A DNA stretch of 64,000 nt. Origin: Ceratodon purpureus (Eukaryota > Streptophyta > Bryopsida > Pseudoditrichales > Ditrichaceae). Position 1 is the stretch's first letter. Each line of letters opens with the position of its first letter. A program made the translations under genes and the position numbers. Below, in pieces: positions 7,701 through 57,784 of the stretch. Location of the stretch: positions 2,877,799 to 2,941,798 of the forward strand of contig CM026429.1 of NCBI GenBank assembly GCA_014871385.1, read 5' to 3'. Under the pieces are notes generated by a model, which worked only from the letters and a program-made list of their open reading frames with translations, had not been told where the DNA came from and made no database searches.

Positions 7701-7739
7701 GTAGGTACTCGTTAGACGCAGAATTTGAGTGGGGATCAG

Positions 7740-30890: not shown

Positions 30891-31831
30891 TTAATCCCTA
30901 AAGGTCCAAGGTGTTTTGGCACCTCCAAAACCGAAAACTTGCAGATTTTAACCACCTTATGGAAATTGATGTATGTTTCCAATAAAATTTGCTTTCTGGT
31001 ATATCCAACTGTAAGATCTATAACCTAACTACGTTCATTAACCCCTCGTCAAATTTCAACCGTTGGATCTTGACCATTTGTGAGATTATAACAATCAAAG
31101 TTTACTGTTTGTTTTTTTTGGCTTTGTCGGAAAGGCATAGTCTAAATGGTGCCAAGGGAAACTTGATGATTGTTATCCCAAACATTTTGCTCATATTTTT
31201 TTCCATATATGTAACTAAGTTGGGCACCTCCATGAAAAAATTTGGAGATTCATTTTGATTTTTTGGCCTTCATGCAAATTAGTTTCGAGAAGGAGGTACA
31301 AAACCCACAATATGGTCAAACTTAAATAACATTAAAGATTTTTGGTTTGCAAAAAAAGTGAAAGGTAAAAATTTATATCTATATATTTGTGAATTTTAGA
31401 AGAAAAAAATAGTTTGAAAAATTCCTAAATCTCAAATTTTGACAATTCTCGAAAGGAAAAAATGGAAAATCACAAAAAACTAGGAAGCTTGTTCATGTAA
31501 TTTTTGGAGGCTGCCCTTGTAAAATTGGTAAACTTTTTGACTTGGATCACTTTGGATTTTGAGTAGTGATTTGGTTATAAACATATTTCTATTTTTTTTA
31601 TTAAAAAAGAAACCTATTTTAAAAATGCCCAAAGTTGACTTGAAATATAAAATTTCTAGTTGAAGGTTCTAAAATTAGAATTTGACTTTGAAAATTTTAT
31701 CACGTACACATTGTGGTAAAGGGAGCATTGAGTAAAAAAATTAGGCAAAAAATATTACTTTTAACCTCTTCATCTAGGCTGCCCGATATAGCAAAAAGCC
31801 ATTTTGGCTTTCCTGGACCTTTAGGGGTTAA
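30891..31831. mobile_element. TTAA-bordered inverted-repeat element (piggyBac-like architecture), 933 bp
   Basis: TTAA flanks both ends (30891-30894 and 31828-31831). The termini are inverted repeats of about 16 bp inside the TTAA, C/T CCCTAAAGGTCCA, with two mismatches over the 20 bases including the TTAA. No open frame of useful length, so it is non-autonomous or decayed. A TTAA target with ends starting CCCT is the hallmark of piggyBac-type insertion. The interior carries the phrase AACCGTTGGATC, variants of which recur in related copies. Confidence 0.7.
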
Positions 31832-32947
31832 CATTTAGAAGGACTGAAGCTATACATAGTATACTTAATTGAACATCTATCAATCTAACAATAAACTCAG
31901 AGCATTAATTTTTTTACCTTCAACTTGGAAACTTATGAATTTGACTTTTGAAGTAGTATAACTTTTAGAAAGAAAAGTTTAGAAGGTTTGGACTTCATCG
32001 TGAACTTGACACAATGAATAAGCAAAGGTTCCAAAATCCATATAATAACAAATTTGCTTTATATCTTCGTTTGGTCAGAAGCTCCAAATTCTAAGTAGAA
32101 AATCAATGTCCACCTTAAGGAATGAATTTATGTGGAGGTACTTTAGATAACACATTCTATTTTTGGATAATAGACTTGAAATACCAAAGACACCTTCATG
32201 TCAAACAATGATTTTTTAATAAAAAAAATAATCATGAATCTTCAAAGAGTGTTAAAAAAAATCTCTATAAACACATTCAAATGGGTGGATAAGCAACCAT
32301 GAAAATATTCATAAAATGAAGCCTATAGTTGTGTTTTCCTCCATATTCTATTTCAAAAAGTGCCATGCATGAAGCTTTATTCCACCATACTCTTGCCATA
32401 GTAAACAAAATATTCATAAAGTCAACAACTCTTTTGCCTTCTTTTTTTATGTAAATGAAAAACTAACTTATATTTGTATGTAGCCGCAAAATAATTATGT
32501 AAAAAATATTCAAGATTTGAGTGATTTATTGATGTTTCATTTACAAGAAATGACACAATTTTTTTCAAAAGTGATTTGAATGGTATTACTTGCCATGCAC
32601 AAGCTTCATGCCATGCTCCAATTCTATATGGTCATCCCCATCTTTTTTGGAAGTTGCCTTATGGTTCTACAAATTTGCCCTACAAGCCCTTCCCCTTCGC
32701 TCCCTTCCTTTCTACTACCTAAAAGAATTTTAAAATTACCCAACTCAATAATTAGTCTATTCTCTATTCTAATGAAGGGACTACAATTAGACCTTATATG
32801 TGGACTCAACTAAATTGATTTTTTTATATTACATGTTATAATCTAAGGATTTGATTTATTTTGTAGATAGATCTAACACCTTCAATACATCCAATTAAAG
32901 ATTGTGATTTCAAAACCACCAACTAAAGAACTATTATAAATAGTTGA
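31832..32947. other. AT-rich spacer between two TTAA-bordered elements
   Basis: No gene or structured repeat could be supported. Short open frames at 32580-32813 lack recognisable motifs. Confidence 0.5.
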
Positions 32948-33770
32948 TTAATTCCTTAAGCATCAACCCAACAAAAATGGTATGATTTTGGATTCCGTCA
33001 GGCTCGCCATAAGTCACTTTTTATAGAATGAAGTTGTAATTTTGGCACAATATAGACAATTATCATATCTTTTTAACAAGACCGTTCTAAATTCCTCATA
33101 CTTTAAGAGATATCCACAGTCAAAGTTTGAACACACTATTGGGGCATATTGAAATCTGCCCAAAACTGAAGTATATGCTCAAAATCTGCCCAAAATTAAT
33201 TAGACACAAGAAACTTCAAAAATTCACCAAAATATTAGATTTTACTTTTTTCAAGTTTTGTTTTTTTACATGTAAATACAATTTGAAGGCATGGTCTCAC
33301 CGCTCCGATTTTCAATCCAATATTTCTCCATATGCCTTTTTACTATCATAAACCAGCCTTTGTATTATAATTTTAGCATACATCCATGTGAAAAATCAAG
33401 CATTTTTTTTAGGTTTTATAGGTTGAGGGAAAAAAGTCCATGGACATATTCTTAACCCACCTAGGAACAAGAATATGAAGAGCCTTAAGTCAAATTTTCT
33501 TTTGAAATTGGGTTTTTTGGCTCACGAAACTCTTGAAACCCATTTTGCAACGAGGGAATTTTTTTTTCCAACTTAGAACATTATGATCTCATAAAAGGTA
33601 AAGAGTTTGAATATAAGAATTAGGGTGCACATACATGTACAAGTAAGGTACTAGATCCTACAGTTATTTCCTCCCAAAATACATCAAAATTTAAAACTTA
33701 CACCTTGTATTGAAAGTTTCTAATTTTGAAGGTTTTTGGTAGTCTGAGGCCTTTCAACTTTAGGGTTTAA
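32948..33770. mobile_element. TTAA-bordered element, subfamily with CATCAACycAACA left end, 815 bp
   Basis: TTAA flanks at 32948-32951 and 33767-33770. The left end reads TTCCTTAAGCATCAACCCAA. The right end, read inward, is ACCCTAAAGTTGAAAGGCC, which contains an exact plant telobox AAACCCTAAA when the flanking bases are included. By eye it is about 85-90% identical to 49743-50573 over several hundred bases, including the phrase GGTACTAGATCCTAC near the right end. No coding capacity. Confidence 0.75.
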
Positions 33771-34720
33771 TTGAACTTATGTGCCCAATACCACCATTTC
33801 ATTTCTAGTTACACCATCATCTCATTCATGTTATTCACTATTCTCATTTTGGTACATATAAGACATTTCCTAGCTGGAGGTGATGAGCAATTAGTGGATA
33901 TGAGCTATACTACCTCACTACCTTGTGTGGAGATAGAAATGGTTTCTATTTATAGGTCTTGGTTCATAATTTATTCATGTGGTGACCAAAAAATTACATC
34001 AAAAAGTGCATTGGAATCATCTTTCTTTTGCTTATGGAACTAATAAGAAATAGTTTTAATTACTAATAGTAAGTGCGCTAATTACTTAAATGCTTAGAAA
34101 GAGGCTGAAATACCTCAGAGATGGTTAGAAGTGGATTGAATGGGTGGAAGCCAGGGGTACTATTGGTGTTGCAGAAATGAGAACAAGGGAATTGGAGGAA
34201 CTGCAGCATTTGTGATGGTGCATCATGCCTGTTCACACAAGCAAATAATCCTGCAAAGGTAGCATTTGTAGACAAGACTCTCCAGTTCTATAGCCTTGGG
34301 CTCTTGGATCCCTGTGCATTGCTCAAGGAATCACAGATGGTCAGGTAATGTTAATTTTTTTGAATACTCATTGTGGCTAATAATTCATACTATATATAAA
34401 ATTCATACTATATTCAATATTTTTAAAATTTTAATAACAAAGGAATGTTGATAATTTATGGGTAAAGTTTGGTGTGATGTATTAAATTGTGACACTTTAA
34501 GAGTGGTGATTTTTCTACCGTTTTTATTGCTTAATTTTATGAGTATATTCAGAACACTTTAACGATCTGTTTTGAATTAAAATCTTAAGAATTTTTCATA
34601 AATCAACTCAATATGAGATGAATCATATTAAATTCAGTTATCATTCCCATTATGTAAGTTTCACATATGCACAATGTTAACGAACCATGAGATTTTCTAC
34701 TATTTTGGGAGAATTAGATG
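33771..34720. other. Intergenic region, no supportable gene
   Basis: A stretch at about 34080-34330 has more balanced composition than its surroundings and might be decayed gene or element sequence. No motif was recognised, and the rest is AT-rich. Confidence 0.45.
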
Positions 34721-34729
34721 AATGCCATC

Positions 34730-35520
34730 CATGAGAGATCTTGCCGCTTTTGAGTAGTCAATCGTCCAAAATCTGGATGTTGTGAAGCAAAGAAGTGAGA
34801 TTGATAGAGTAATGCCATGCATGGCCTTCATCTCCAACTAAAACATGTAGCACAACAGGACTATCATCTTTGATATGAAATTCAACACGGGAGAGAAGTT
34901 GTTGTAGAGGCATGGTGAAGGTTGTTATGTGGAGAGAGCAGAATAGGAGTTACACATGAGAAATGGGTAATCTTGGCATTCACTACCAGCGGAGTGGCAG
35001 TAGGACCCATCAGATTTAAGAAGAAAAGAGCCTCCTCCACTGAAGGAAGCATTCTTGAAAGGCAAACATAACTGCCTACCACAAGATGGCAACGGTACAC
35101 CTCAAAACAAAAGCAACTATCACATGCACGAAGCCAACGTCAATGGAGTACAATGCAGATGTCAACAAGGCAAACAGACAGATGCAGGAATAGAGAAGAG
35201 AAAGTGAGAACTGAGCACTGGAACAGACTGCTGGATTGAATTATGAGTGGGGTTGAACCCCTATACAAGGACTAGCAAGTGCGAAGAATCCACATCGCTC
35301 CTTCTCCAGAGCTGGGTTAGCTACAGAAGCACTAGGGCAAAAGCTAACTACAGTGCGGTGTTGTGATGTCGGCAAATTCGATGTGAAGTGTGTGCAAAGA
35401 TACAAACTAAATTCTATGCTAGAGGCAGGGACCAATCAATATACAAGATTAACAGCATAAAATTGGGGACCCATCTACAGTGCGAATGCGAACTGCCGTT
35501 CTCTATGTACTACCGCAGCT
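34730..35520 (-). mobile_element. Possible LTR-retrotransposon fossil (LTR plus adjoining leader)
   Basis: Read on the minus strand, about 35520-35080 looks like a long terminal repeat: a promoter-like TATA region followed by a pyrimidine-rich leader, then near 35080 a GTGGTAGGCAG stretch reminiscent of a tRNA-Met primer site. The adjoining 34730-35070 would be internal sequence. It is broken and old, and no second LTR was found. Family (Copia-like is possible) and limits are uncertain. Confidence 0.3.
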
Positions 35521-36021
35521 GAGTTGAGCCAACTAGTCCAACCTTCAACTAGTCCAACCTTCATGGAGTACCAAAGGAAAGGATGAGAAGGGGTATGATA
35601 CGAATGGCTAACCTTCGTATCTGCGCATCCAAGCATCCTGTTCAGACGGGATGACCTCCAGGCTTATGCGTCTCTTATTGGCTTTTGCGTAAGAAGAATG
35701 AAAATAAACAGTAGTCACAGCTAACGTTGTCCTAAAGGCTTTTGAATGGATGGTACAAGCGGAAACCTAGGAATTAACAACTGAGCTCTTCAAAGTTACA
35801 CTTTACAGGCGAGCCTGGGCTGCAGTGGCGGCCCCTTGGACACGGCAGACGGTGTTGGTGACCGACACCGCAGATTTTGCCTTCGTTGGCAAAGACAATA
35901 CAGCACAACATCCGTGAATGTCTGTCCTGTACTTCTGGTCGAATCCCCACACAATTCCAGCCATAATGACTGGATCCATCGGTGGTTAGGAAGATAAATA
36001 ACTTCCAGAGAGATCAGGAAT
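35521..36021. other. Region downstream of the telobox gene, including its likely 3' untranslated region
   Basis: The telobox coding region ends at 36022, so sequence just below that is probably untranslated trailer. A small direct repeat (CTAGTCCAACCTTCA) lies near 35529-35563. No gene is seen. Confidence 0.4.
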
Positions 36022-39000
36022 TTAGAAATCGAGATCGGCCTGCTGTTTGGCTGCATGCTCAGTCCAATATGCATGTGCACGAGTCACTCTTTCTAGTAGC
36101 TCTTGAGGAACAGGTTCCCCCCTGCGCTGATGTGGGGCAATGCGGGCGGTGTGAACCAACGTCTTCCACTTGTCCTGTAAACCAACACATTGCATCAAGT
36201 TAAATTATTGCAAACCAAAGTGAGATTACCCTACTCAGAATGAAAGTGCCAAGATTCAAAGAAACATATGAATTCCTAAAATAAACTCTCTTGAAAAACC
36301 GACACCAAGGAATATAACTTAAGAAGATTATTACAAAAGCAAAGGATTCAAAGGACACCTTTAAATCGACGTAAGTCCTATGCTTGGCCTGTTCAAAAGC
36401 CCGTAATTTCACGTCACGCCACCTGTTTCCACCGCCCATAGTCAGATTAACATAAGCTCATTTTATTTCAATACTAGGTGAACTTTGAAATATCTAGTTC
36501 GAGTAGCCTTTCCAGTTCTCAAGTTTCTCACTACCAAGATCTTATTTCAGACTGGGTTGAGATCACAATTTGATGAAGAAGATAAACATTAAAAGCTCAA
36601 TCGTGCCACTAATTCTGATACCTGGTAAAATTTGTTGATGATAATTAGCAGAGTATTTCATAGTCTAATACGAATGTCTAAAGCTCAGCGGTAAATTACC
36701 TGCCAGTGCCGAGCTTCTCCACGGCATGGACTAGCGCTTCTACCTCCGAAACGCTGAATGGACGGCGCACCCTGCGTTTGCCGTTGTCGAGAGCGCGAGA
36801 TATCTTACTTCGCATGGGGACAAGAGCCATACCAGGAACATTATCTCCAGTTCCCAGACCTGGATGCAAGATAATGGCCCCTGATCCAGCCACAATGGAA
36901 TCGTGAGAAGATGATGGCGCAGGAGACGGTGAATCAACCTCATTTCTTGCACGCCTGCTAGCATCGGCCTGTGCGCGTATAGCAGCTAGAGCCCCTGCTG
37001 CAGCGACACGGGTTGGATGAGGTGAGATAACCATGCGCTCGCTCATATGCTTATTGGTCTTCGTGACATTGCATCCCTTTACAGATTCCTCCGGAGTTGC
37101 AGAGAATGCCACCCCATTGCGTTTCTCATCAACAAAATCCTCTTGGTCACTCGACATCGAGGGTGGCACATAAGACGGGTCAGGGTCAACCACTACCCCA
37201 CTGGACTTGTTCGAGCGTCCTTTCATGGGGCACCGAACTCCTCCATCGCCAACCCCAGAAAGCCCAGGGACTCCATAGACGGGATACCTGCATGGAGCAA
37301 CAAAATGTTAGTGATGATAAGCAGAATCACCACCACTTTCGTTATACGGACTGTAGACTTCACCTAGTTTTCCAAAACAAATGCACGTTACAGTACAAAT
37401 CACTAGTACCCCCAAGCATAAAATTGCCCTCGGTCTAGAGATATCCATACCTAGGTGCTGGTTGATTGGCAGCACGCGAAAGTACAAGCAAAGGGTCTTC
37501 AGCTGTAGCAGAGGCCGAAGTAAGTACGGGACTAGGCTCTAGCATGAAGCCAAGAGACTCTGGCTTTGCACTACGGGAAATACCAATCTGTGATAGAGTG
37601 GCAGCCTCGTCAGGAACTTTCTTGCCTTGCATCAACACCCGCACTCGAAGGCCACCTCCGAGCAAATTCATCGCTGCATCCATCACTGCTCTCTGAAGAT
37701 AATAACAGAAAAACAATCAACCATAGAGGATGTCAGAAAATATAATGAAACGCAGTGGGTAAAACGAATTTCATAATATGTTTTAACCCAGGTACAACCA
37801 TGACCAGTTTCCTCAGAAATGATCACAGGGATTTTGAACCTGTGAGGGCTCTCAGTTCTACCTTGAGACTTGCGACACTTGCTGATTCAGGTAGATCCAC
37901 GAAGAGTTCTGGAACTGTAAATGATTTAATGCTGAGCTTAACTGCACCATCCACAGAGTACATAAGCATATCAGCTCTAGTCACATTCATTGATGGTTGG
38001 TCAGCCATAATCCATACATCCTGAACATGATAGTCCGAAAATGAAAACAGCCTGACAGCATACCATGTGGTTCCAGTGACTTCTTTGAAACAAGTTTAGC
38101 CGACCTGGCAGTTGGAGAAGATGCCACACTGGCTGCTTTAGCTGCATCAAGAAGCAAGGTCTGTAAGTTATAGCTTCACAAGACAATCATCGAGATATGA
38201 GTGTATTGGTTTCATGAAGTTTAAGATAATTAAAGACACATAAATGAAACCGTAACTAATTGAATACCAGGCTATCTTACTAAGATGCACCAAAACGATA
38301 GAAGCAAGGTAGCCAGTTGAGATTATAGCTTCATTCCCTTCGAGTCTCTATACAAGTCTTGCACAAATTTGCAAGACGTCACATCTAAGCCATCATACTG
38401 AGAACATAACAGAAACATACATACTAAAGCTGAAACAACGCAAACATACCACTGCGAAGCTTGGCTGCAGCCGCAGGAGGCTCACCAGCTACACACTCAT
38501 ATTCCAGCTCCATAAGATCACTGGTGTCCAAATGCAAATCTGGAGTGGTTTTGGAGCTACCATCCACCATTTTCTTTCTTTTGTTTTGCAATCCTCGTGT
38601 TGTCCTCTGCCGAGTAAATGCAGCAATACCGCTAAAAAACATTTTTTTCCCATACCTTGAATCTGCAACAACATTCCACAACATAGCTGAATACAGAGCT
38701 CCTTAGCTTGCTGAAAGCAAGCCTCATAGAAGTCCGGTACCAACAATTAGCAGGCCTCAACAAAATGCTTCCTCACATTAGTAAGGCCAAGCTCATAGTA
38801 AGGTCCGGAACTTCTTAACCAACAGTAACGACTTGACATACATACTCAGGCTTATCACCCGAGATGTATTAGAAATGCTTCAAAAAGAGATAAATGGGAA
38901 ATTTCTTCTAGCTACTCGAACCAACGCGTTCATTCCTAGTTAACAAGCACTAATACTTCAAAAGAAGCGTCACAGCAACAATGAGGATTAAAACATGACA

Positions 39001-40803
39001 GAGTATTACTACCTTCGCTAGAACCTGAATCTGTGGACTCCATTTCAGTGTGCTGGCGCTTCGTCCTGGTAGTTCCAGCGACGTGATTGCGTTTAGCAAC
39101 CTTGACAGCCCTTCGAACCTTTAAGCTCTTACTGTATGAATCTAGTTTTTTCGTCATTGTCTCGGGATGAAGGCGTTGAGATGAACGATAAACATGTTCT
39201 CTCTTGTAAAATTTCCCATCCATTCTACTCATCACCCTCTTCACCATGGGCCTAGTACTTCGGCCCTGAGCTAGCCCCAGAGCTGCAGCACGAAAAGTTG
39301 CAGAAGAGGCAGCAGCGGGTTGATTCTTCCTGGACCCAAGCACATTCTTCTCTTCAATCTCCATGCTAGCTGTTTCATCTCCCACTACTTCAGTTCCCCC
39401 TATCAGCTCAGCCGATTCACCATATTCTCCGCTCTCGGACATCTTGCACTGCATGTGAATCTCCGGAGTTGAGTTCAATGAGTTCTTGGAGGGTTGATAA
39501 GGACTTCCTTGCACTAGAACAGATCCATCTTCTGCCTCATCCAGCGACTTGGCGCAAAGAATCATATTTTCGGACTTCTCCAACAGCTTACAAGAGGCCT
39601 TGTCAGAATCTGATGACGTCTCGCTTGCAATGGCTGCTGCTTCAACCATCTTAACGCAAGGGGTTTCTTCAACAATCTCCAAGACTGCTTGCTTGACCAC
39701 TTCCTGTGTCATCTCTGAGGCCGACTCTTCAGCCGTCAGAGTTTCGTAGATCTTTTCTGCAGGGTATTGCTCGACCTCTGTACTTCCCCCACATGCTTCG
39801 GAAACAGGTAGCATCTCCTTGACCTCATAAGAGGGAGAAGCTGGACTAGGTCCAGCGCGCGTAGTCGACATGTCGCTCTCACATAGTGGCAGCGTAGTCT
39901 GCATAAGATTTGAACTTGGATGTGAGAAGACATATGAAACATATCAAAATACAGATTGTATGCACAAATTTCTACAGTACTGAAAACAGCAAGTTCATGG
40001 TTGGGTAAAAAAAAACTTGTGTGACCAATAAATACAAATGGGACGTAGACAACCAGAACGGGAAACATGAAACGATGGAGCAAACAAGAAGACAAACATC
40101 GTCAGAATATTTACCAGGTCTTCGAGCGGCGAGACATTCATATGTACAGGTGCACCATTGCCTTCATCCACTAAAACATCCTTTACAAAGACTTTCCGCT
40201 TCTCTTCCTGTGATGGAGTCCGAACCGCGCAGCTCACGGTTTCCAGATCGTTGCTAGCCTGGACAGAGATGTCCTTGATCATACACACATCCGTGAAACC
40301 ATCTGCATTTACCGTAGGTTTTCCAGCTGGTTGAGGTTTATCAACGGATGTGAAGTCTTTCACGCTCTCAAGACTTGTTATTTGAGAATCTAAATCAGAC
40401 TGTGGCTTGTCTTTGGACGCTTCCTGGTGAGTCTGCTTAGTCTTATTTGGATCTTCGCTTCCTGCGTCTTGCAGGATTTGACCAGCCACAGTGGCAAGCA
40501 GGTCAAAGACTCCAGTGCGAGTCAGGTTATTGGCCTGCCGCTTCGCAGCATCGCCTCCTCGTCCCTGGTGTTTAGTCAAACTTGTCAAGTCAGAATTGAA
40601 AATCCGATTGTATGCTTGAAAAGAAAGCGCAAGACATGTGAAGTATTCATGTTATAACTGCCAGGAAATCCAAATACATAGTTGCATTAATTCATGTCAT
40701 GTCGGACCAAGAATCATACCCGCTGGGACCGCATAGCACGCGGAAGAGCAGGTCCATCGTATCCTGGAAAGCCACCACCAACTCTTCGAATTCGAGCCTC
40801 CAT
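36022..40803 (-). CDS. TRFL: TRF-like telomere-repeat binding protein (Ubl + C-terminal telobox Myb), ten exons
   Basis: Proteins of this plant family (TRP1/TBP1, RTBP1) bind double-stranded telomere repeat (TTTAGGG) in the nucleus. Exons 40803-40720, 40564-40115, 39898-39013, 38662-38450, 38141-38064, 37974-37862, 37692-37451, 37287-36700, 36422-36359 and 36174-36022 join in phase to 956 residues, longer than the roughly 550-700 of angiosperm members. The N-terminus MEARIRRVGGGFPGYDGPAL and the following GVFDLLATVAGQIL match the family's N-terminal boxes. A ubiquitin-like region (about 578-665) contains VKLSIKSFTVPELFVDLPES and LGGGLRVRVLMQGKKV. The C-terminal Myb (about 866-925) contains RRPFSVSEVEALVHAVEKLG, RWRDVKLRAFEQAKHRTY and the telobox signature VDLKDKWKTLVHTA. 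The tail, GEPVPQELLERVTRAHAYW, is also typical. Extra length sits mainly in exon 3 (295 residues, acidic and Ser-rich). The acceptors of exons 2, 5 and 6 were chosen to keep frame and are less certain than the rest. Confidence 0.93.
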
Positions 40804-44310: not shown

Positions 44311-46163
44311 GTAGTTACTGGAGGAGAGATGGAATTATTGGGGCTATCAATTGGGCCTGGGTTTATGCTATTGAGAGGCTGGTTTGTGTGTTATTGAGAG
44401 GGTTTTGGGTTTTGGGTTTTGAAAGGGCAGTAGTCTTTTTCAAGCTTGAGCGGTTGGTTTGCTTGGGCTGTACACTGATGGAAATGTGTTTGGCACACTT
44501 ACCATCAGTTGTTGAAATGTACTGCGTTCATTGATGTGCTCCTCTGTGATTCGGAATGGCTGGTGGGAATGCCCTAAGGTCGGGGCATTTCCAATACCCA
44601 AATTGTACACAAGCTGGTGTAATTTCTTTCTCACTCAGTTCCCTCTATTATTTGAAAAGAGTGATATATACCATTGATGGATTTTTCAATTTTGAGTTGT
44701 GGATTACAAGTTTTAGAGTGTTTATAAGAACTATAACATGAAGAAAAAAATTCTCATTCCATTCTCCAACTTGTTTTTCAAACAGTATATTTCATTGTGA
44801 TTACTAATTCGTTGAAAGTGTATGACAATTATTAGCAATTTGTCTGCTTTTCAGCTTCAAAAATCTAAGTAAACCTGTCATGATTTCAAGGCTAGCGTAT
44901 TTTTAAAAATTACAGATTCGACTGTATTTGATTGTCATGAATTTATTTTTTTAAATGAGTCAGGAAAAGGTTGAATAACATTTACATAAGGTAGTACATC
45001 AATTTTGGCATACCATCCTTCAGTGGAATCAAGCCCTTTCAGTTAGATATTAACTTTTATAAGTGAATAACATTTCTATACAAGGTATTAATTTGGTACT
45101 TTACATTTTGGTATAAACAAAATTGAAGGTGGGAGTAGATTTGAATTTGTTTTCATACCTCATTTTGTAGTGCTCTTTGAATTGGTGCTAGAGAGTTATG
45201 AGGCAAATATTTGGTCCAAACTTTAAGCATGATAAGTAATACACTATACGAGCATGATATAAAAATAGACTTTATTGTCGAAGTTTTTTTAAATTTTAAA
45301 ATATTCATGTTAATGATATTTATTTTATACGCCAATATTAACAAGGTATATTGTTGGTACATTAAATTTGCCTTATACCAAGGTGGACACAAAATATGAG
45401 CTGAAAGTGGATCTTTCTTTTACTTCAGTTTAATCTTCTCGAGACAACTCTCAGATGTATGATAACCTCAGCCATATCATACATCTTTATGCAACTAATT
45501 GATTTATGTTAATTTTTAAATTTTTCATTAGTAACTAAAACAATTTGAAAAATGAAACTCACTTCATTCATTTATAATTAAGAACTAGATGAAAATCTTG
45601 ACGATCTTTTAAAACTCCATCTATTGTAAGATCATTCGAAGTTCATTTCAGCAATTGGATGTGAATGAGCACATGGAAGGCATGGAGAATGCATTATTAT
45701 ATATTTGACAAGTGAATTGAACCAATTTGTTACTTGTTCAAAGGTCTATTTATACCACTAAATTCTTCCAATCCCACCAAATATCCACATTTTTATAATT
45801 GGACAATTCTTTAGTGGGTGAACAATTTTTAATGATCTATTTTGGTGAAATACATTGTTTTTTTGCACTAAGGTATCTAAAAGGAATGACCTACAAAAAA
45901 TGCTTATTTATGAGCCTTTGTGACCACATTTTTTTTATAAAGTTACTTTGAGTGGCAACTTATACAAATATTTTTTCATTCATCCATCCATCCATCAAAA
46001 TAATTATCTTTTTTACTTTCAATCCGGAAAAAGAAATCTCAGTTCGACTTCATATTGTCTTTGATTATGAGTTCCATGAAGTTACCTTTAGATTAAGAAT
46101 AGATCTATGAAGAGACAATATAGATCTAGAACTAATAACGACTTTACTATATTCAAAATTATT
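44311..46163. other. AT-rich intergenic region
   Basis: Three diverged copies of a GGTAT...GGTAC...TTTGG motif occur near 44985, 45080 and 45345. A 12-bp perfect foldback lies at 45453-45486. No gene is supported. Confidence 0.5.
45453..45486. repeat. 12-bp perfect inverted repeat
   Basis: AGATGTATGATA and its exact reverse complement are separated by 10 bases. It is not followed by a U-tract and is in intergenic DNA, so no terminator role is proposed. Confidence 0.7.
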
Positions 46164-46297
46164 GTATACAATACATAAAATATAATTTTTTGGATCAGTG
46201 GTAGAACAAGCATACACGTTATTCACGTTGGTATACAATATACAAAATATAATGTTTTAGATTAGTGGTGGAACAAACATACACGTTATTCACGTTG
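46164..46297. repeat. Tandem duplication, 67-bp unit
   Basis: Copies 46164-46230 and 46231-46297 both start GTATACAATA and end CATACACGTTATTCACGTTG. They differ at several scattered positions. Their last 35 bases resemble 27200-27234. Confidence 0.85.
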
Positions 46298-46537
46298 GTT
46301 TCTTTTGTGGTTCACAACTGATATTTTTTCAGTAAGGTATAGCAGTGGCAGTGGCACACGTTCTCGGCCTTATCGTACTACTTGTATAGTGTCAACGTGA
46401 CCAGAGGCAACATGATGTGAATGGAGGCAAGACGATGTGAAAGGTAGCATTATTGACTTGACAATGTTGGAGGGCATTTCAATGATGTTGATCTTGATAT
46501 TGAAGTGCTGGAAGTTCATGAACATAGCTGCATCTCT

Positions 46538-46742
46538 CTACATGTTCTTTAGTAGTTGCCACTTGCTTATAAGCTAAGTCTTTAAAGTTTATGTCAAACT
46601 TCAACCACCAACTTGAAGTATATATGTTGAACTACTGGAAAAGTTTGTGACCGAGTTCAATCTCTTAACATGTTCTCTAGTGATTATCATTTGCTTCCAA
46701 ACTAAGTCATTGTCAAACTTCAACCACCAGCTTCAAGCATCT
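46538..46742. repeat. Direct duplication spaced by about 130 bp
   Basis: Two blocks of about 75-85 bp begin ACATGTTCTnTAGT and end TGTCAAACTTCAACCACCA followed by a GCTT/ACTT variant. An old tandem duplication of non-coding DNA. Confidence 0.65.
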
Positions 46743-49738
46743 TTGTAAACATTATTTAGCAGAGTCCAATTGATCAAATCAACTTGTAGTCGACCCTTTC
46801 ACATTAACAATCAAACAATGTTACTATATTACCTTATGTTTTTACTAATTTTTTAAATTAAATTGTCAACAAAATTTACAAAACTAAATGTCATCATTTT
46901 TAACCTTTCAAAATGTCAATCCACTAATTATTTTTTGAGTTTACAATAAACATTAAAAATCATATGAACGTGTTTTTGTGGTTAAAACCTCAAAGGAAAT
47001 CACTGAGCTAATAACAACCTTTAAAAACTGTGGTTACACAATCAAATTTCAATCTTTAATTTTTAAAAATGATAAAATTCTACAAAAAATAATTTGATTG
47101 GACTACATACATTCCATTCACACAGTCTATTCGTAAAGAACTTGTCAAGGAATTTCAAAAAAGTGCTTTTGAAATTTGTTCAATTTTCTTCACCATGAAA
47201 AATAACCAAATTAGTATAATTTGGATAAATAATTTTGTTTTTTTTTTTTTAAATTTAAAGTCCTAGTGTATGTAAATCATGTATAGCTTAGAAAAATCTT
47301 AAATAATACTTTGTTTAAAATAAATTTTAGAATGCTCGCATTAAAATTCACATGTATATATTTTTTACATTCATTGCTAGCAGTACGTGTGTATGTATGT
47401 AAATACATAATTATACATTCTCTTAGTATTCTTATATAAGATCCTTCAAATGAAACCAAGAAAAAATGAATAATATATCCAATATTTCCTGCATTGAAAT
47501 TGGCAATTTCTGAACTTTTTCAATCAAAAACATATCAGAAAAATTAGTTATTGAGTTGTGAATTGTATCATACACTACAAACTATGTAACTCTAATCTCT
47601 TAATTTAAAAATCATTTAATTTCTTGATTGCATATCAAAAGATCAATGTATAACATGGAGCCCATAAATGGAAACTATTAGAATTCAGTCTACTGTATAC
47701 ACATAATCAATAATTGGAACTTTTGGGGTCAAATTCTGCGTTCCATGGAGATCAACACAATGAGGTTTGAAATTTGGTTTTCGTGTGCAATCAGTAAAAA
47801 GGTGGGATAATGAAACGGAGTGGGGCCACCACCCACCCAAATGGCCCTAATGGGGCCCACCACCCAATCCCCCTCCCACCAATAACACAAGGCCACTTGG
47901 ATGTGCAACATGCTGCAAGGTGAAGGTGACCTCACATTGAGTCACCCCAGGAAGGGGTAGAAGAGAGAGGGGAAGGGAAGGGAAGGGGATGAAGGAAGGG
48001 GGTGCAGATAGGGTAGAATGTCCTTAAACCGCAAATTTAAGCATTTGGGTATAGGTGTGGGGCTCTTATGTATTTTCTGAGAATTTTCATCAAAGGTAGA
48101 ACAAGAATGATGCTGAAGGCAATTTTTTTCGGAATTAAATAGCAAAAATCCAATTTATTATGAATATTGTAAGTGAAAAGTGTCCTAGACCTAAAAGCGA
48201 TCAGTGCTGAAATGTACAAAAGAGGTACATCTGATTTTTTAAAATCTAGAAATCAAGCCTGAACGGTTTTGGGTCTTGGTTGGTTCAAGGACATTCTACC
48301 CTAGATGATGATAAGTTGGGGTGGGCATGGCCTGGCCCCCACACACACAAGTGCGGAATGCATGTGGCGAGGATGAGACAGCAGACGCCCAGCGAATGAG
48401 CTGCAGAGGACTGCTCTTACTCCAGGGTCAGGACTATGCTCTGTATGGCTCCCCCGGATTATACCATTCCCCCCCAACCCCACCACTTGGGTCCACATTT
48501 CTGACCTGGAAATGGAGACGCTCCCTGCCACAAAATTTCAACCAAATTTCATGGCTGCCCAGCCTCACCATTTGATCCTTTCAGTTTTTTTAAAAAAGGA
48601 TTAAATAAATTGAGTGCATTGTTCCTTGGGGATGCTGGGATCTTGGGGGTGATAGGGTGGGGTGGAGTGCTGCTGTGCCCATCACAGGTTGCAGCTTACA
48701 AGCATTTGGAGGCTCTTGTCTGATGCTGTCAAGAAAGAAGAGCTAATTTGGATATGCTCTCACTTGCTGAGGTTGTGGTGATCATGTTTGGTTTGCTACA
48801 AGGATAAACTCCGGGAGACGATTGAAGGAAGAGTGTGCCGTAGCAGGGTGACTACTTCGTTCAAGGTAGTTTTTTCCAATCCACAAAGGTCGTTTGAGGA
48901 AGATGCTAAATCCCTCTGACAATTCTTTTAATAAAGTTTTGTGTACGAATAAAAAACATAACCTTCTCCAAAATCATAAAATAATGCATGATGGAATAAA
49001 ATTACATGCAAAAGTTAAAGACATATCGTGATTCAATAAAAATTGTTGTTTTACTATTCATTTAAGTAATTTTTGTTTTTTGTTTTTAATTCTCTAATGA
49101 AAAGGAAAATTCAAAACAACAACAAAAAACTATAGAACTCCATGTAATGGTTTTTGAATCCCACATGACTGGGTTGAATACCCTACTGTAGGTGATGCTG
49201 TGCAGGTTAAGTGAGCACACTGCCATGAGTTTTGAAATACTCCAGTGAGAGAAAAATACAGACAGGGGAGCTTAGTGGAAATGGCAAATGCCAAATGCCA
49301 TAAATTGTGATTCAAGGTGACCAAATGGGTGCAAATCATAGGATACCATCATTGCCAGGCACCGTGAGACCAAGAAATGATTTGTTGGTCCAAATATACA
49401 CTGCCTGGGGACCAAGTCTCCCTAATGAGCCAAGGCCACTCGATTTCCAAGTGTTCTTGACTTTGGAATTTGGAAACCTCAGCTTATCACATGCGCAACC
49501 TCACCAAGCCCAGCTGGCTTCGGTCCAAGTTGGGCTTCCAAGTCCGCCTCAAGGTTGATTGTCTTAGAATCACCAAATTAGGCATTCTGGTCTATTTTTG
49601 GAAATTATGGACTTGGATCAAAACATGACCATATTTTAATAGTGAGTATCATAAGGATTGCAAAAATTTGCATCAAGTAATTCATATTTGTCAATTTTAC
49701 ACTAAATTTGAAAGTATAATATATTCTCTAGCACATTT
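46743..49738. other. Intergenic region, no supportable gene
   Basis: Mostly AT-rich. Exceptions are a C-rich patch near 47820-47890, a purine tract of GGGAA-type repeats at 47960-48003, a GC-moderate stretch at 48310-48560 and one at 49130-49560. None shows an open frame with recognisable motifs. Confidence 0.5.
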
Positions 49739-50577
49739 TTATCCCCTAAAGCATCAACTCAACAGTTTTGGTAACTATTTAGGGTCCGGTCAGGCTCCCT
49801 GTAAGTCAAAATTTACCGGATGTGGCTCTAACTTTGGCACAACATGGGAAATTTTCATATCTTTTTAACAAGACCATTCATACTTCAAAATTCTACATAC
49901 TTTAGGAGATTTTCGCAGTCAAAATTTGAAAACACTATTCGGGCATGCTGAAATCTGCCCAAAACTGTAGTATATGCTCAAAACGTGCCCAAAATTAATT
50001 GGATCATAGAAACTTCAAAAATTCACCAAAAATTGAGATTTTATTTTTTTCAAGTTTTGTTTTTCCTACATGTAAATAAAATTTGAAGGCATGATCTCAC
50101 CGCTCAGATTTTCAATCCAATATTTCTCCTTATGCCTTTTTTACTATCATAGACCAACCTTTGTATTTGAATTTCAGCATACCTCCATGTGAAAAATCAA
50201 GCATTTCGTTAGGTTTTTTAGGTTGTATGAGGGAAAACATTCCATGGACATATTCCTAACTCATCTAGAAACAAGAATTTGAAGAGCCTCACATCTAGTT
50301 TGCATATGAAATTGGTTTTTTTGGCTCACGAAACACTTGAACCCATTTTCCAACATGGGAAAAAACTTTTTTCCTACTTAGAACCTTACAATCTCACAAA
50401 CGTTAAGGAGTTTGAATCTAATATTTGGAGTACATATACATTAACAAGTAAGGTACTAGATCCTACGGTTATTTCCCCCTAAATACATCAAAACTTTAAA
50501 AAATTACACCTTGTATTGAAAGTGTCTCATTTTGAGGGTTTTTGGCAGTTTTGAGGCCTTTTAAGTTTAGGGGTTAT
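49739..50577. mobile_element. TTA(A/T)-bordered element, same subfamily as 32948-33770, 831 bp
   Basis: TTAT flanks both ends (49739-49742 and 50574-50577). The inverted termini are CCCCTAAAG (left) and CCCCTAAAC (right, read inward). The left interior GCATCAACTCAACAGTTTTG is shared with the copy at 55655, and the interior is about 85-90% identical by eye to 32952-33766. If the family targets TTAA, the flanks have since mutated or this insertion used TTAT. Confidence 0.75.
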
Positions 50578-53500
50578 CATTTGGTTCTCTACATCCAAGT
50601 CCTTGGTTTTTAGCTTCTAAATATAAGCAAACTTAAAACTACCAACATGTTGCAAACTACTTAGAAAGAAAGACACTATAGTGAAGTGAAATTCGATTAT
50701 CTTTGATGCGGATTCAATAACAGGTCAAATTAAGGGTGTTGGTATGGCTCATAGTTTTAAGGCAACCAATCCTCTATGAGAGGTTAATGCCAATGATGTT
50801 GAAGCTAATTTACAAAAAGAATATTTGTTTATGCCAAGAAAAAAGAAAGTTTTGACATGGCTTCAAAATGGCCTAAATGAAACAAATTATGCTTTTGCCT
50901 TGGTCCAAACCAATTGACTTCAATTGCTCCATGTCACTTGTTGTCTTCAATGTAATAAGATATACTTATAGCCCTTCTAAATTTGAATGTTGGATGATGT
51001 ATTTGACTCCATCATTATAAAGACCTTGAGATTGATTTTGTGAAATCAACTAATCGTCTACAAAGATTCAAGCATTCCAATAATCCAAATTGGCCTTCAC
51101 ATAAACCTTTTTATCCTCTAAACCTTAAATCACATGCAAAGTCAACTTCGTGAAACATGAATGTTTCAATATATTTTCTTTTCATTTTTAAAAAAAAAAT
51201 CTAAATTTTTAGTAGAAATTGTGCCCTCCATGACTAGATTTCCGTGTCTTTGGTCATAAACATGGTCACTTCTTCTACTCATGGAGGGTGTCGTTTCCAC
51301 CTTGATTGCAAGCAGCCTCAAAGCAAGAATCAGTAACTGAAAACTTAGCCAAACTTGTGAACTATCTATGTACGAAAACTTAAGAATAATGCCTATGTTG
51401 TAGGAAGCCTGGAGGCCTGCTATTCTTTTAGCACGTTGAAAGTACTAATTGTTCGAATCAATATTAAACAAAAACAATAAAAATGAATGAAAAATAATAT
51501 TTATTGATGTATAATTAATTCACATTGGTCTTAAAAAGAGGCCATGATTGAGTAACACAATGAACTAGTGTCACCAATCCAATTTTCTTCAATTTCAAGG
51601 AGTATCATCTTCAATTTTGGATTCAAATTGTCATCGTAAAGTTAGTGACAACAAATGTCAACAAAGTATTGATCTAAAAACATTATGGCAATTATAAATA
51701 ATATCATACGCATGATAATTTATCATAATTCTAAGTAATATATTGTAGAATCATCATTTTAATATAGGCTACAAATAATTAAAAAGTAAAGACTAGTGGA
51801 TGTAAAGAAGATAATATTCATTTTTGTCAATATGTAGATACCATATTGTGTATAAGGTAAATTGCCGCTTTCACCATCACAATTCATAGGTGATAGTCAA
51901 AAGTAAAAAAAAGCCATTTATTGACCACCAAACTTATATCACTATAAAAAATAGGTGGAAGAACAGTGATCATGGATTAAAATTTTATATAATTGAGTTG
52001 AAAGGATTTTTAAAGAAAATCAATGCAAAATAATTTTTAAAGAAAACATGAAATAGCAACATGCCATGATATTTATATTTACCATACCATGACAATTCCA
52101 ACTTTTTGATGCTGGTATTAGAATAGAAATAGAGTATCTATACATATACAAGATGTTGATTATTAGTTGTTCATTGGATGATGAATGGATTAGTCTAGTA
52201 ATACTCTTGTAGATTTTTCTCCAACACCCTTCAAAAACTCACATAAATTTATTTTGGTCCAAAAATTATGATCTATTCACATTCTCATTCATATCTATGA
52301 ACTAAAATTGTGAGTTAATGCCTACAACATTCAACACTGAAGAATGAACTGTGGTGTTTCATTTTTTTTTAAGAAATAATTAAAATAAAAAAACAAAATA
52401 AAATCCTCAGCGTGGTGGTAATGGGGCAGCCCACCTTGTGTAAGTTCCAATTAAATACTGGTAAGCATGAACTACATCTCTCCAAAGAAAACTCAAAAGT
52501 GATGAACACGGACTCAACAAGCTTCCAGCAGGAGAAGATGCACCACCTTGGTGACCAATCAAGAGTACATAACACTTCAAGCCCAGCCGGCTAACTTACC
52601 TTAGAAGCTTTGCATCAGGCTTTTTTTCCTTGCAAATCATCTGATTCATCCCAATCATCCCCCCACATATGACTCATCACACATTATCTAAACCTGGAAA
52701 TTCCTTCATAGAAATAGACTGAAGTGCAAATTAAGGCAAGGGAGGACATGGGAACCAATCCCATACCCCCCTAGGAAGCTCCTAATCATTTTGCTTGGAT
52801 TCCAATTCTCAAGGTGCCCTCCTGGATTCCTCCATCAAAATAAACATAAAAATAACCATATGAATAAGTGAATGTATAAATATTCGATCCAGGTATGATC
52901 CCCCTATTAGAGCAGTGGAGAAGGTGGGCCGGTGACCGTGGTCCTGATTTTGAACCTGTAGCCGGAGGCCCGTACTTTCCCCCGCCGAAACCCCGGGTGA
53001 CCCCATCATCTGATCCCGGGTCAGTCGCCATGTGTTGCTCGTCGATCTCATCGCTGGATCAAACTTTACCACGCGGTATCCGTGTTGAAAACTGGAGGGG
53101 GGGTATTTATTTGAAATATAAGTTACTGTGGTGTTATCATGAGAGGGGGCCGGTATTTGAGTGTCTGCACCTGCCCCTGTATATTTTCTCTCTGCACGTC
53201 AAATTGCAGTGGTAAGCATACCGGTGTGGGTTCCCACCGACGAACGCAATCTGCACTGAAAAGCCAATTTAGTGCGGCCCACAATTTTGTGATTGGGGGT
53301 TAGAGTATGTGATTCATGGGGAAAAAGTAATATTTGAAATATGGTGGTTACCTTTGATAAGCTTAGTATGGGTTGCAATGCATACATGTGAGTTAATGTG
53401 GTAGAAGATTATTATTTCATGAATTTATGAATTATTGGGGTGTAATGTGGGTGTTGAGATAGAAGATGGCTTAGTGAACAAACTTAGTACATTTTTTCTT

Positions 53501-55654
53501 TTAAGAAGATTACCGTGTTTAATATGTTTTATTGGGCAATTCAATTTCTCGTTGTCTAATGGCTTACAAAAAAATAGAAAATAAAATAAAATCTACATAC
53601 CAACAACAAAACAAAACAAAAAAAAGAAAAAGAAAAAGAAAAAAGAAAAAAAAATGATAGAATACAAAGTAACATTATATTTTTATGTATTTACATGATT
53701 TGTTTCTTGTCTACTATTTTTCGTGTGTTTTAGTGTAGGTGAAAAAGACAAAAGATAATCCTTTTTTTTTAATAATAAACAAGAACTCACAAAATATAAA
53801 ATCACGATCATATATCTACATTTCATCTTTGTATGTTAGAAGGGTACAAAATTTGGTATCTAGATTTCTATATTTCTTTAAAAATATTTATGAAAAAAGT
53901 AATGAAAACACATTCAAAGAATCAATATTTTCTTAATTTGAAAATTTAGACTAATTCCTATCAAAAAAATGTAGGCACATGCTCTAATCACTTCTTTTCC
54001 ATAGCAAATGAATTGAAGGATGCTTTAAAAGAAAATGTCACTTTATGCAATGTTTCAAAAGACTTATAAATAGTTGGGATTCATGTAAATTGTATTCTTT
54101 TATAGTATTTATATAAATTGTTCTAATACATTATATTAATTATATTATGTCATTACCAATTATCAAGTAAAAAAAAGAATCACATAATCTCAGGAAAAAA
54201 GATCCAATACTAAGCGTTGTATATTAAAACTTGACAAAATCTATGATCTTGTTAAAAACTAAGTTCGTCTAAAATTTAAATGTATTTTTGTGAAACCAGT
54301 TAAATTTTGTTACTTATGGGCCAAAAATTCATCATAATTACCCAAGTCCTTCCCTAAGCTCAAAAACATTTCCCCTTGCAATTATAGAAGAAGACAATCT
54401 CTAATGGACTGTATCACGATTATAAACCTCCTATTGGGATTCATGATCTTTAATTTCCATATTTTTGCTATTAAATTCTATAATTATCAATTGATTTTTT
54501 CTTAGAAAAACAGGACCATCTCATAATACACACTAAAAATAAGGGATTAAAAAATTAAAGAATGAATGAAAAAATGAATGAAAAATAGAATACAACATTT
54601 GGGGATAACAAGGTAAAAGGTTCGAACTACTGTTCGACTTGTGCCCAAAAAGGGAAAAAATCTATAAACATCATAAAATGCTGGAATGAATATAGGTTGG
54701 AAGATCCTCAATTCAGTACAGTTAATATTTAAACCTAGAATCTGATGCTTGGACTTACCATAACTATTTGTTTTAATTGTTTTTTGCATTTCATGCTTAT
54801 TATTAAGTTGTCTGGCAATCTGGTGGGGACTCAGTCTGGAGCCCTGTAGATGATGATAAGAGCAATTATGTACGCTTGTGAGTACCCCAAAGTACATTGG
54901 AAAATGGGGAAAATGAAGGAGCACATCCAAAACACATTAAATGAAGTCTTCCCAGAAAATGGGAGCCTCCCCAAAGCCACCCAGACAGACGTCCAGACTT
55001 CACAGGGTCTTCAAAATTTAAACTCATTCCTACAACCAATGGGCCTCTGGGTTGGGTTAGTTTCTTAATCCCTGACATTGTCTGAAGAACTATCTCCAGA
55101 CTACGGAAGCAGGAAGGAGCTGCACAAAGATTGCACATGTGCTTCCCCATATTTGGTTCAGAGAGTTGCAATTGCCCCTCATGCATTTGTACTAATGGCA
55201 AATGCATTGTCTGTAAATCATCGTGTTTCATGGATGAAAAGGAATCCTAAGTGCTTTTGGGTTGTGAGAAGTCTCCACAAGGGGAGTTTTGTTCGAAACT
55301 CCTCAAAATTTGGACTTTCTCCATAGTTTCTCAAATTATTCTTGTCTAATCTCCACTATGCATTTTTTTTTCTTGTAACTTGAAATGATGTAGCATAAAG
55401 TAAATGCAATGTTAGTCTTCCATAGCTTGTTTAATGTGAAGTCGGCATAAGTTACCTTTGTAAACAATTTAACCAATGTTGAGTATTTTTGCTTCTTCAA
55501 ATCTCATTTCTAATGAAGTTTGTAAATAAAAAAAAAATTCAAAATAAATATGCAAATTATACAATACTACCCAAAATGAAGTACTTGGCTTTTAGTTTGA
55601 TGATGAATTTATATTCTAGTCTATGAAAGACATTGTTATCAAAATCAAAGAATG
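50578..55654. other. Long AT-rich intergenic region with one GC island
   Basis: No gene is supported over 5 kb. A GC-rich island at about 52880-53260 has short open frames on both strands with no recognisable motif. Poly-A and GAAAAA-type simple repeats occur near 53600-53660. A moderate-GC stretch at 54840-55330 also lacks recognisable coding features. Confidence 0.5.
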
Positions 55655-57007
55655 TTAACACCTAAAGCATCAACTCAACAGTTTTGGTTCGATTTAGGGT
55701 CCGGTCAGGCTCCCTAAGAGTAAAATTTACCAGATGTGACTGTAACTTTGGCACAACATGGGAAATTGTCACATCTTTCGAAGAAGACCAAATTTTATTT
55801 ACATCAGGCCTGTAGGTTAAGAAATAATTAGTGTTTACATATCCAAAGTCAATTTAGGGCAACTGGGGCAGATTTGTGGCGGATGGGAGTGGTGTACCAA
55901 ATATGTGACACTCTACAATGACTTCTATATGATCTTTATGAAACCGTTTCAATTTATTTTTTTAAACTGGATTTTGAGAAATCCAACCGTAGGATCTTAT
56001 TCAGAGCCATCCAATTAGTAAAAGTATCAAGTTTTGTAAATTTTGACTGTAAGGATTTTGAGATACATTCAGTCAAAGTTCTAATTTTTTTATAAAAAAT
56101 TCAGACAGATCAACAGTGATTGAGTCACCTTCGTCACCCATTTTTCCTTCACCATTTTCTCCTCCTAAACCATACTCCCTATGTTTCCAAAAGAAACCAT
56201 GGTTTCCATTTCGGGTCAGGATTAAGCACACTGACGCCGCCTTGAATTTTGCTTATTTTAATTGAAAGTGTCATTTGGCTTAATACGGATTTCAAGTGCC
56301 ATAATGCCATTTGGCTTAACACGGTTTTCAATGTGTATATTGATGGTTGACTTCCTGGTAATAATGAAACCATGGTTTCTTTGTGAAACAAAGACTTTGT
56401 GGAAAGGATGGTTTCTTTTGGAAACAAAGGGAGTAGTATATGCTGTAAATTCATATTTATTTTGGATTTATTTATTTTTTGGATTTCTTTCCTCTACAAT
56501 TTCTTTTCTATACAAATGCATGTATACACCATTCGGATTTCAAAAAATAGGTGATCTTCTTAGGCATTTGTAGTGTGGAAAAACAGCCAGTGTTTATGCA
56601 TTTCATTTTACTCCCGTCATTGAAAATGTGCTTTTCCAATGCTTCTGTGTGTTGGCTGGTCTTCAATTTTTTTGAGCATACTCCCAACTCACTTTAGAAT
56701 CCAAAATTGAAGAGCCTTCAACCATACAATCTCAAAAAATTGGCTGTTTCACTCTCCAAAGGGTGGTTGTCCGTGCTGGATAGTACAGAAAAAAACTTTT
56801 CTCTCAAGTTCAAATCTTATGATCTTCCAAACGGTGAAGAGTTACAATCTAAAATTTTGTGTACACATACATGTACAAGTTAGGTACTAGATCCTGCGGT
56901 TAGATTCTTTAAAATACGTTCGAATTTGCATAATTCTAACTTGAACTAAAATAGGGCAGAATTGAGGCAAATCTTGGGATTTTATGGCCAAAAACTTCAG
57001 GGGTTAA
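55655..57007. mobile_element. TTAA-bordered element carrying a nested MITE, 1345 bp
   Basis: TTAA flanks at 55655-55658 and 57004-57007. The left end CACCTAAAGCATCAACTCAA matches the subfamily at 49743. The right end, read inward, is CCCCTGAAG. Near the right end GGTACTAGATCCTGCGGTTA matches the other two members. The interior is divergent and is lengthened by the 259-bp element at 56175-56433. No coding capacity. Confidence 0.7.
56175..56433. mobile_element. Stowaway-like MITE nested in the TTAA element, 259 bp
   Basis: Inverted termini CTCCCTATGTTTCCAAAAG (left) and CTCCCTTTGTTTCCAAAAG (right, read inward) differ at one position over about 26 bp. TA flanks both ends (56173-56174 and 56434-56435). 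CTCCCT ends with a TA target are the plant Stowaway (Tc1/mariner) pattern. The near-perfect termini suggest it is younger than its host element. Confidence 0.8.
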
Positions 57008-57331
57008 CAGCATACTAAGAATTCAAGTAAAACATACTAAATATTGTGATTATATACTTGAAAATATAAAATATCAAAGACTAAGTAAAAGAATATTCCG
57101 AACCTAAAGAGACCCCCTCTCGTATACACAATATGAATGTAATACCTTCTAGTCCGTCTTATTACGTTATAGTCAAATTCTTGTTTGGCATTATGGAATG
57201 TGAAAAGTGGCAATAGAAGAAGTTTTGAACCAGACATTTCCGTTAAGCACTGCCGGGCTCCCTGCCTTTACAAATCGACGCAGTTAATCACACAAAAAAT
57301 TTGTAGGGCCCTCCACATGTGGATATAATAG

Positions 57332-57369
57332 TGCAGTGCATGATTAAATATTTAATGGTGCATTGCATC
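57332..57369. repeat. Near-perfect palindrome
   Basis: The sequence reads TGCA..ATTAAATATTTAAT..TGCA with almost no loop, giving arms of about 16-18 bp with two or three mismatches. It lies directly left of the tRNA-like stretch. Confidence 0.55.
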
Positions 57370-57389
57370 GTTAAACGGGGAAGGGAATT

Positions 57390-57432
57390 GGTTCACGAAG
57401 GTCGTCAGTTCGAATCCCGACACTACTTAACG
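57390..57432 (+). other. tRNA-like B-box stretch (possible SINE or tRNA remnant)
   Basis: GTCAGTTCGAATCCCGAC contains a T-loop/B-box match (GTTCGAATCC). A clear A box, an anticodon arm and acceptor pairing are missing, so it is not called as a tRNA. A tRNA-derived SINE piece is possible. Confidence 0.3.
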
Positions 57433-57437
57433 CCGTG

Positions 57438-57784
57438 TTAACCTTTAAACGTCATTTTAGGGCCTGGGGGGCAGCTCGGAGAGAATCTTTAGCACTGTAG
57501 CACCGCGATATGCGGCAGTGTAGCACTGTTTAGCACTGTAGCACTACGGCACTGCTGAACTTTAGCTGCCCCAACCTCAAAACTTGTTCAATTTGATTAC
57601 TTTGATTGCTTACCAACGATTCCACAATCTCTCAAATGAAGGGAAAATTTGGAATCTAGATCGCTTTTTCAGTACCTTTCCAACGCAACAAGTCTCGCTT
57701 GATTTGGTTGAGAAATGAAACTTCTGTCTCCAATTATTCCATTAAACCAAGCCCGTGGGGCTGGCTCTGACGTTTAAGGGTTAA
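57438..57784. mobile_element. Short TTAA-bordered element, 339 bp
   Basis: TTAA flanks at 57438-57441 and 57781-57784. The 13-bp inverted termini are CCTTTAAACGTCA and CCCTTAAACGTCA (one mismatch). The interior includes tandem AGCACTGT motifs near 57490-57550. The ends differ from the CCCCTAAAG type, so this is a separate subfamily or an independent family with the same target choice. Confidence 0.65.

Follow-up and report, generated by a model that had tools for sequence, protein, structure and literature searches.

Short TTAA-flanked elements in a moss genome are probably non-autonomous members of the piggyBac superfamily

Introduction

Elements of the piggyBac superfamily are described as having TTAA at their target, terminal inverted repeats (TIRs) of 12–19 bp and ends that read CC[C/T]T (PMC2872659). 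Among the miniature inverted-repeat transposable elements (MITEs) ascribed to piggyBac in coral, one family starts with CCCCT and three have seemingly shorter TIRs (PMC2872659), whilst in beetles CCCT is the commonest start and some copies depart from TTAA (PMC12732532); both TTAA and ATAA have been called typical piggyBac duplications (PMC8634313). Kolobok elements, recorded from green and red algae, likewise duplicate TTAA but have 5'-RR...YY-3' ends (R, purine; Y, pyrimidine; PMC9587614). The literature cited here and below was available to us in part, and statements drawn from it are limited to those parts. We describe here a 64-kb stretch of contig CM026429.1 of Ceratodon purpureus (positions 2,877,799 to 2,941,798; hereafter the window), in which a sequence-only reading had picked out five elements, E1 to E5, together with partial ends near 17435 and 19367. 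Matching 4-bp repeats, inverted ends, homology that stays within the TTAA sites, unrelated flanks and scanned reading frames with no recognisable transposase together make a well-supported case for a cut-and-paste transposon that is specific for TTAA and whose ends are mostly CC...GG. Judged by these termini, E1–E4 (with the 17435 copy and the 19367 end) and, separately, E5 are probably non-autonomous elements of the piggyBac superfamily. The features concerned are as follows.

E1: 30891..31831, minus strand, non-coding TTAA element of 941 bp, the two 4-bp repeats counted in; termini TTAA-TCCCTAAAGGTCC...GGACCTTTAGGGG-TTAA
E2: 32948..33770, plus strand, TTAA element, 823 bp; termini TTAA-TTCCTTAAG...CTTTAGGGT-TTAA
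E3: 49739..50577, plus strand, 839-bp non-coding element flanked by TTAT; termini TTAT-CCCCTAAAG...GTTTAGGGG-TTAT
E4: 55655..57007, plus strand, TTAA element, 1353 bp, with a nested MITE inside; termini TTAA-CACCTAAAG...CTTCAGGGG-TTAA
E5: 57438..57784, no strand assigned, TTAA element, 347 bp, TIR CCYTTAAACGTCA; termini TTAA-CCTTTAAACGTCA...TGACGTTTAAGGG-TTAA
X17: 17435..18365, plus strand, probably a sixth, decayed copy; its left end reads TTAATCCCTAGAGG
Lone terminus: 19367..19420, plus strand, TTAACCCCTAAAGGCCC..., 13/13 to the consensus given below

Element ends, target duplications and coding content

All five elements start and stop where the sequence-only reading had placed them, with the same 4 bp to left and right: TTAA in E1, E2, E4 and E5, and TTAT in E3. 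None of these repeats extends past 4 bp, and the presence of TTAT on both sides of E3 argues for a 4-bp duplication. Immediately inside the repeats lie inverted ends that are close to CCCCTAAAG in E1–E4 and read CCYTTAAAC in E5, the two ends of each element agreeing at 14/16 positions in E1, 12/13 in E5, 8/9 in E3, 7/9 in E4 and 6/9 in E2. Twelve ends (the ten of E1–E5 plus those at 17435 and 19367, the last two having been chosen for their likeness to it) give the consensus TTAACCCCTAAAG, with positions 2, 3, 9 and 12 invariant. The G+C content is 31–35% in E1–E4 and 44% in E5. Inverted ends, a fixed target and duplication of that target are the marks of cut-and-paste movement by a transposase that binds the ends.

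The elements are short (347–1353 bp) and TIR-bounded, and no transposase was recognised in 20 read-through frames (six each from E1, E3 and E4, two of six from E5 and none from E2), so that in structure they fit the MITE class. Matches to Pfam in those frames were weak and unrelated, the best being GAD-like (E 0.029); DDE_Tnp_1_7 was absent from all 20, and the six frames of E4 gave no match at E values up to 1. With only weak, unrelated matches of this kind, the elements were most likely moved in trans. The earlier description of the copies as devoid of a transposase thus holds for the scanned frames of E1, E3, E4 and E5; E2 is 83% identical to E3. There were no Rfam matches and no tRNAs, and an inner motif had no match in viral contigs (a search from which records near the window's own genome may be missing). 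Directly to the left of E5, at 57408-57418, lies a tRNA-like GTTCGAATCCC box, in which ARAGORN reported no tRNA and which is perhaps a tRNA-derived relic.

Relationships among the elements

E2 and E3 share 82.8% identity across 835 alignment columns (32954-33769 against 49745-50576); the BLAST alignment runs from 6 bases within the left boundary to 1 base short of the right one. Their Kimura distance, about 0.21 with 20-bp flanks included, suggests that these copies are old. E4 matches the pair in two places, over ~136 bp at its left end and over a block of ~113 bp farther right. The left part is 88% identical to E3 (138 columns) and 71% identical to E2 (136 columns), both alignments starting exactly at TTAA/TTAT; the right block (56790-56902) is 79% identical to E3 and lies ~105 bp short of the right end of E4. 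The last 105 bp are too diverged for BLAST and the interior of E4 is unrelated to E2 and E3. The length of E4 is in part due to a nested, TA-flanked MITE, which must have inserted after E4 since it lies within it.

Stowaway-like MITE in E4: 56175..56433, no strand assigned, TIR CTCCCTWTGTTTCCAAAAGA, TA at 56173-56174 and 56434-56435

The ends of this MITE read CTCCCTWTGTTTCC, with a TA duplication, and from what is typical of such ends we take it to be a Stowaway-like element.

A check put forward in the sequence-only reading was whether the homology of the copies stops at TTAA. Within the window it does so for E2–E4. In ungapped comparisons of the three pairs, the 60 bp outside the elements match at 16–20 positions on the left and 10–18 on the right, which is chance level, and the 60 bp inside at 36–45 and 27–36 positions, respectively.

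More distant kinship was assessed with 221-bp subterminal stretches lacking the 9-bp TIR, 13 ends being compared in 78 pairs with 60 dinucleotide shuffles each. Eleven of the 78 pairs exceeded z 3.5, each scoring above all 60 of its shuffles. The six like-end pairs within E2–E4 gave z 10 to 25, and the left end of E1 gave z 4.8–5.4 against the right ends of E2, E3 and E4. By these comparisons E1 is a distant, reversed relative, its left subterminal region corresponding to the right one of E2–E4, and its homology with them is limited to such anchored subterminal stretches. In this test both ends of E5 stayed below z 3.5 against all other ends; E5 is a separate TTAA family. The five had been introduced as one family: that E2–E4 are related, and E1 distantly so, bears this out in part, but they are not one close family and E5 stands apart. 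The motif CCAACYGTWGGATCT, a pattern picked after viewing the elements, occurs at seven sites against 0.45 expected, six of them in E1–E4 and one in the 17435 copy; each of E1–E4 has one site 103–128 bp from the corresponding end.

The right end of X17, near 18365, was placed by eye before the subterminal test was made and is uncertain. In that test only the right part of X17 stood out, with z 4.1 against the right end of E3 and 4.8 against that of E4, and X17 is a probable decayed copy whose partner end would lie near there. Judged by eye, the 19367 end and the right end of E3 have CAAAACTGCCAAAAAC in common; the subterminal region of the 19367 end stayed below z 3.5 throughout the 78 pairs. 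A candidate element at 19367-20710 was dropped: its partner end at 20710 scored 26, against 27 for unrelated sites, and no Pfam domain was found in its six frames. Of the two partial ends noted earlier, that near 17435 has thus gained a probable decayed partner, whilst no convincing one was found for that near 19367.

Superfamily assignment

Four of the five elements show a 4-bp duplication of TTAA, as expected of piggyBac and also of Kolobok, and the fifth one of TTAT, which is ATAA on the other strand. The first two bases are YY at eight of the ten ends of E1–E5, AC at one and CA at one, and never RR; CC is the first dinucleotide at six. Because the ends start mostly with CC or YY and never with RR, they fit piggyBac and not Kolobok, and among the superfamilies for which we found a printed rule piggyBac fits best (PMC2872659, PMC9587614, PMC12732532). 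The likeness to described piggyBac elements and their MITEs takes in the TTAA duplication with its TTAT/ATAA variant, the mostly CC...GG ends and the existence of short, non-coding derivatives that are moved in trans (PMC2872659, PMC12732532). The differences lie in the moss host, in the short and imperfect TIRs of E2–E4, in the CCCC or variant starts of E1–E4 in place of CC[C/T]T, and in size, the described MITEs being ~100 bp and E1–E5 0.35–1.35 kb; moreover, no transposase was recognised in the scanned frames of the moss elements. That TTAA with CCC...GGG ends is diagnostic of piggyBac, as had been stated, is too strong, because Kolobok also duplicates TTAA and no transposase was found in the frames scanned, although piggyBac does fit best.

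That the elements work like a TTAA-specific piggyBac-type element is well supported. They would insert at TTAA, or rarely TTAT, duplicating those 4 bp, and would move by cut-and-paste. The transposase that would have moved them in trans most likely belongs to the piggyBac superfamily, and an autonomous piggyBac-type partner may be present now or have been so once. Recognition may take place through the terminal 9–16 bp together with the subterminal stretch that is conserved at the 'right' end.

Several results weigh against the piggyBac assignment or against parts of it. The start CC[C/T]T is seen at just two of the ten ends, both of E5, and at none of the eight ends of E1–E4, which read TCCC, CCCC (four), TTCC, ACCC and CACC. 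The 12–19 bp TIR fits E1 (14/16) and E5 (12/13), whereas over 13 bp E2, E3 and E4 match at 6, 8 and 8 positions, respectively, so that the TIRs are short and imperfect in three of the five elements. Homology of full-length E1 with E2 and E3 looked favourable against mononucleotide shuffles (93 against a maximum of 63, and 81 against 52) but failed against dinucleotide shuffles with stricter gaps (36 against a maximum of 43, and 31 against 34), and all seven full-length comparisons of X17 with the other elements were at the level of dinucleotide shuffles. When pairs of ends were sought under loose settings (TIR 8/9 or 10/13, at least 3 G/C, spacing up to 3 kb), TTAA was in no excess, with 6 and 5 pairs against 5 and 6 for AATT and 8 and 9 for TTTT. 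Finally, a transposase was not found in the scanned frames, the genome not having been searched and piggyBac not having been used as a query against proteins; because the mobilising enzyme was not found, the family name is taken from the ends alone.

Alternative readings

The alternative that survives best, unlikely though we judge it, is that E1–E5 belong to another superfamily, described or not (Sola-type, for example, or a lineage of plant elements that has a transposase of its own), and that their piggyBac-like ends arose by convergence. In its favour are the departure of the E1–E4 ends from exact CC[C/T]T, the lack of any transposase seen in the scanned frames, the presence in the same window of a TTAA element with GG...CC ends, the use of TTAA by at least one further superfamily (PMC9587614) and a fern repeat table in which Sola accounts for 1.57 Mb beside 122 kb of PiggyBac (PMC6890710). 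Against it, the combination of TTAA, ends that are mostly CC...GG and a TTAT/ATAA target is what published accounts give for piggyBac. For Sola, the literature searched, as far as it was available, yielded no published rule on targets or ends.

Much less probable is that the elements are Tourist (PIF/Harbinger) or Stowaway (Tc1/mariner) MITEs, with 3-bp TWA or 2-bp TA duplications, that lie in a TTAA context through target preference. TTAA includes both TA and TTA, the two superfamilies are both usual sources of plant MITEs (PMC12595863), and E1–E5 resemble such MITEs in being short, non-coding, AT-rich and in plant DNA. Their duplications are of four bases, however, equal and in register in five of five elements. 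A 3-bp duplication would put the two ends out of register, and the TWA duplication of PIF/Harbinger fits none of the five; for the TTAT/TTAT of E3, a TA duplication would need two independent changes.

Kolobok is still less probable as a source of E1–E5. It shares with them the TTAA-specific 4-bp duplication and is reported from green and red algae, but its RR...YY rule (PMC9587614) is at odds with ends that begin with RR in 0/10 cases and YY in 8/10, and the Kolobok reading of these five is largely refuted. The rule does suit one further element, the single one of its kind known in the window.

Second kind of TTAA element: 11771..12210, no strand assigned, 440 bp, ends GGTAGGAAWACCA (12/13), GG...CC

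On the published RR...YY rule its termini, here in a moss, are Kolobok-type, and Kolobok is the better label for this element (PMC9587614). By eye, its imperfect inverted repeat reaches ~40 bp.

Chance pairing of common TTAA sites, of which the window has 398, is refuted for E1–E5 as a group and carries a negligible probability, even though loosely defined TTAA pairs are no richer than those of AATT or TTTT and weak single termini occur at chance level, since strict controls, 200 random anchor sets and the confinement of E2–E4 homology within TTAA all speak against it; doubt attaches only to the 17435 and 19367 ends. The terminus searched for was TTAWCCCCTAAAG, and the controls for single ends were 20 first-order Markov sequences. 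Exact matches numbered three, with none seen in the controls, and single-mismatch sites four against a mean of 0.6 (combined, seven against 0.6 expected); two mismatches gave 8 against a mean of 2.85 and three gave 30 against 34.7. Because the last count is at chance level, weak single ends carry no meaning.

The strict pair test, anchored on A/T tetramers, called for a TIR of at least 12/13 with at least 3 G/C and a spacing of 100–15,000. It gave four pairs for TTAA, against one each for ATAT and TTTT and none for the other 13 tetramers (two for the 15 together). Of the four TTAA pairs, one joins the 19367 end to the right end of E1, two different elements, and one belongs to the 11771 element with its GG...CC ends. 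In 200 random A/T anchor sets the mean was 0.06 pairs and the maximum one. E2, E3 and E4 fall below the strict TIR threshold, so that the case for their reality rests on their mutual homology.

piggyBac elements in land plants

To judge from the literature available, piggyBac has been studied mainly in animals, and its mentions in land plants are automatic repeat labels or MITE calls based on element ends. A review names PiggyBac as one of seven angiosperm MITE superfamilies recognised from TIRs and target-site duplications (PMC10004981), another counts it among the superfamilies of plant DNA transposons (PMC10794571), and a fern repeat table lists 1230 PiggyBac hits amounting to 122 kb (PMC6890710). 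One abstract mentions plants as piggyBac hosts, none of them named (PMC10813416), and a paper on beetles describes piggyBac as occasional in plants, giving red algae as its example (PMC12732532). A survey of MITEs in 207 plant genomes recognises five superfamilies and one special group, Micron, and the word 'piggybac' does not occur in it (PMC12550479); in a further paper both matches to the word are to 'piggybacking' (PMC10619864). Among the matches listed from the open-licence PMC literature, we found no curated moss piggyBac family. The view that the superfamily is not established in land plants is thus a fair one, if not a clean one, given that land-plant PiggyBac labels exist (PMC10004981, PMC10794571, PMC6890710).

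The kind of element described here is already known; it is the host that is unusual. We suggest, tentatively and with the odds somewhat against it, that mosses harbour TTAA-specific transposon systems of their own, with two or more lines in 64 kb (one with CC...GG and one with GG...CC ends), and that these depend on transposase lineages undescribed in land plants, whether a clade of piggyBac peculiar to bryophytes or a new superfamily that converged on piggyBac-like ends. The ends of the five bounded moss copies can serve as queries for an autonomous element in any moss genome. If one is found, it will bear on native land-plant piggyBac, on horizontal transfer and on the prospect of a native plant tool.

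Neighbouring features

The identity of the host can be followed through a gene that lies between E2 and E3.

Telomere-repeat-binding (TRP-type) gene: 36025-38095, minus strand, MYB telobox exons; its product falls with proteins of mosses

Among the best 120 of 751 matches to its product, the top two by score are 83% and 74% identical over 99% of the query, followed by a third at 91% over 71% and by Sphagnum at 76% over 53%; Taxus and Selaginella (51%) come lower, and Physcomitrium is 82% identical over just 45%. A tree of 13 rows places the window protein with Physcomitrium and a further row (96/96). This group falls within six rows (98/98) that include every named moss but none of the other named plants; Physcomitrium sits on a long branch, and its placement is less sure. 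Over the C-terminal 115 residues Physcomitrium is the closest (109/114), two Sphagnum proteins match at 99/115 and 91/108, and seven other plants have 71 to 86 identical residues. This protein places the host as a moss near Physcomitrium, and the tree bears out the sequence-only statement that the elements reside in a plant.

Elsewhere in the window, open reading frames at 12967-14596, which by typical motifs resemble a hAT-like transposase, had no Pfam match, nor did 13600-14800 when read through. Repeats spaced 18 bases apart (GTGAAGGTGTYGTCAAAGCT...) at 25421-25678 possibly encode a hexapeptide repeat. At 46164-46302 a 67-bp sequence is directly repeated in tandem, and part of a third copy occurs at 27200-27238, at a distance of 19 kb.

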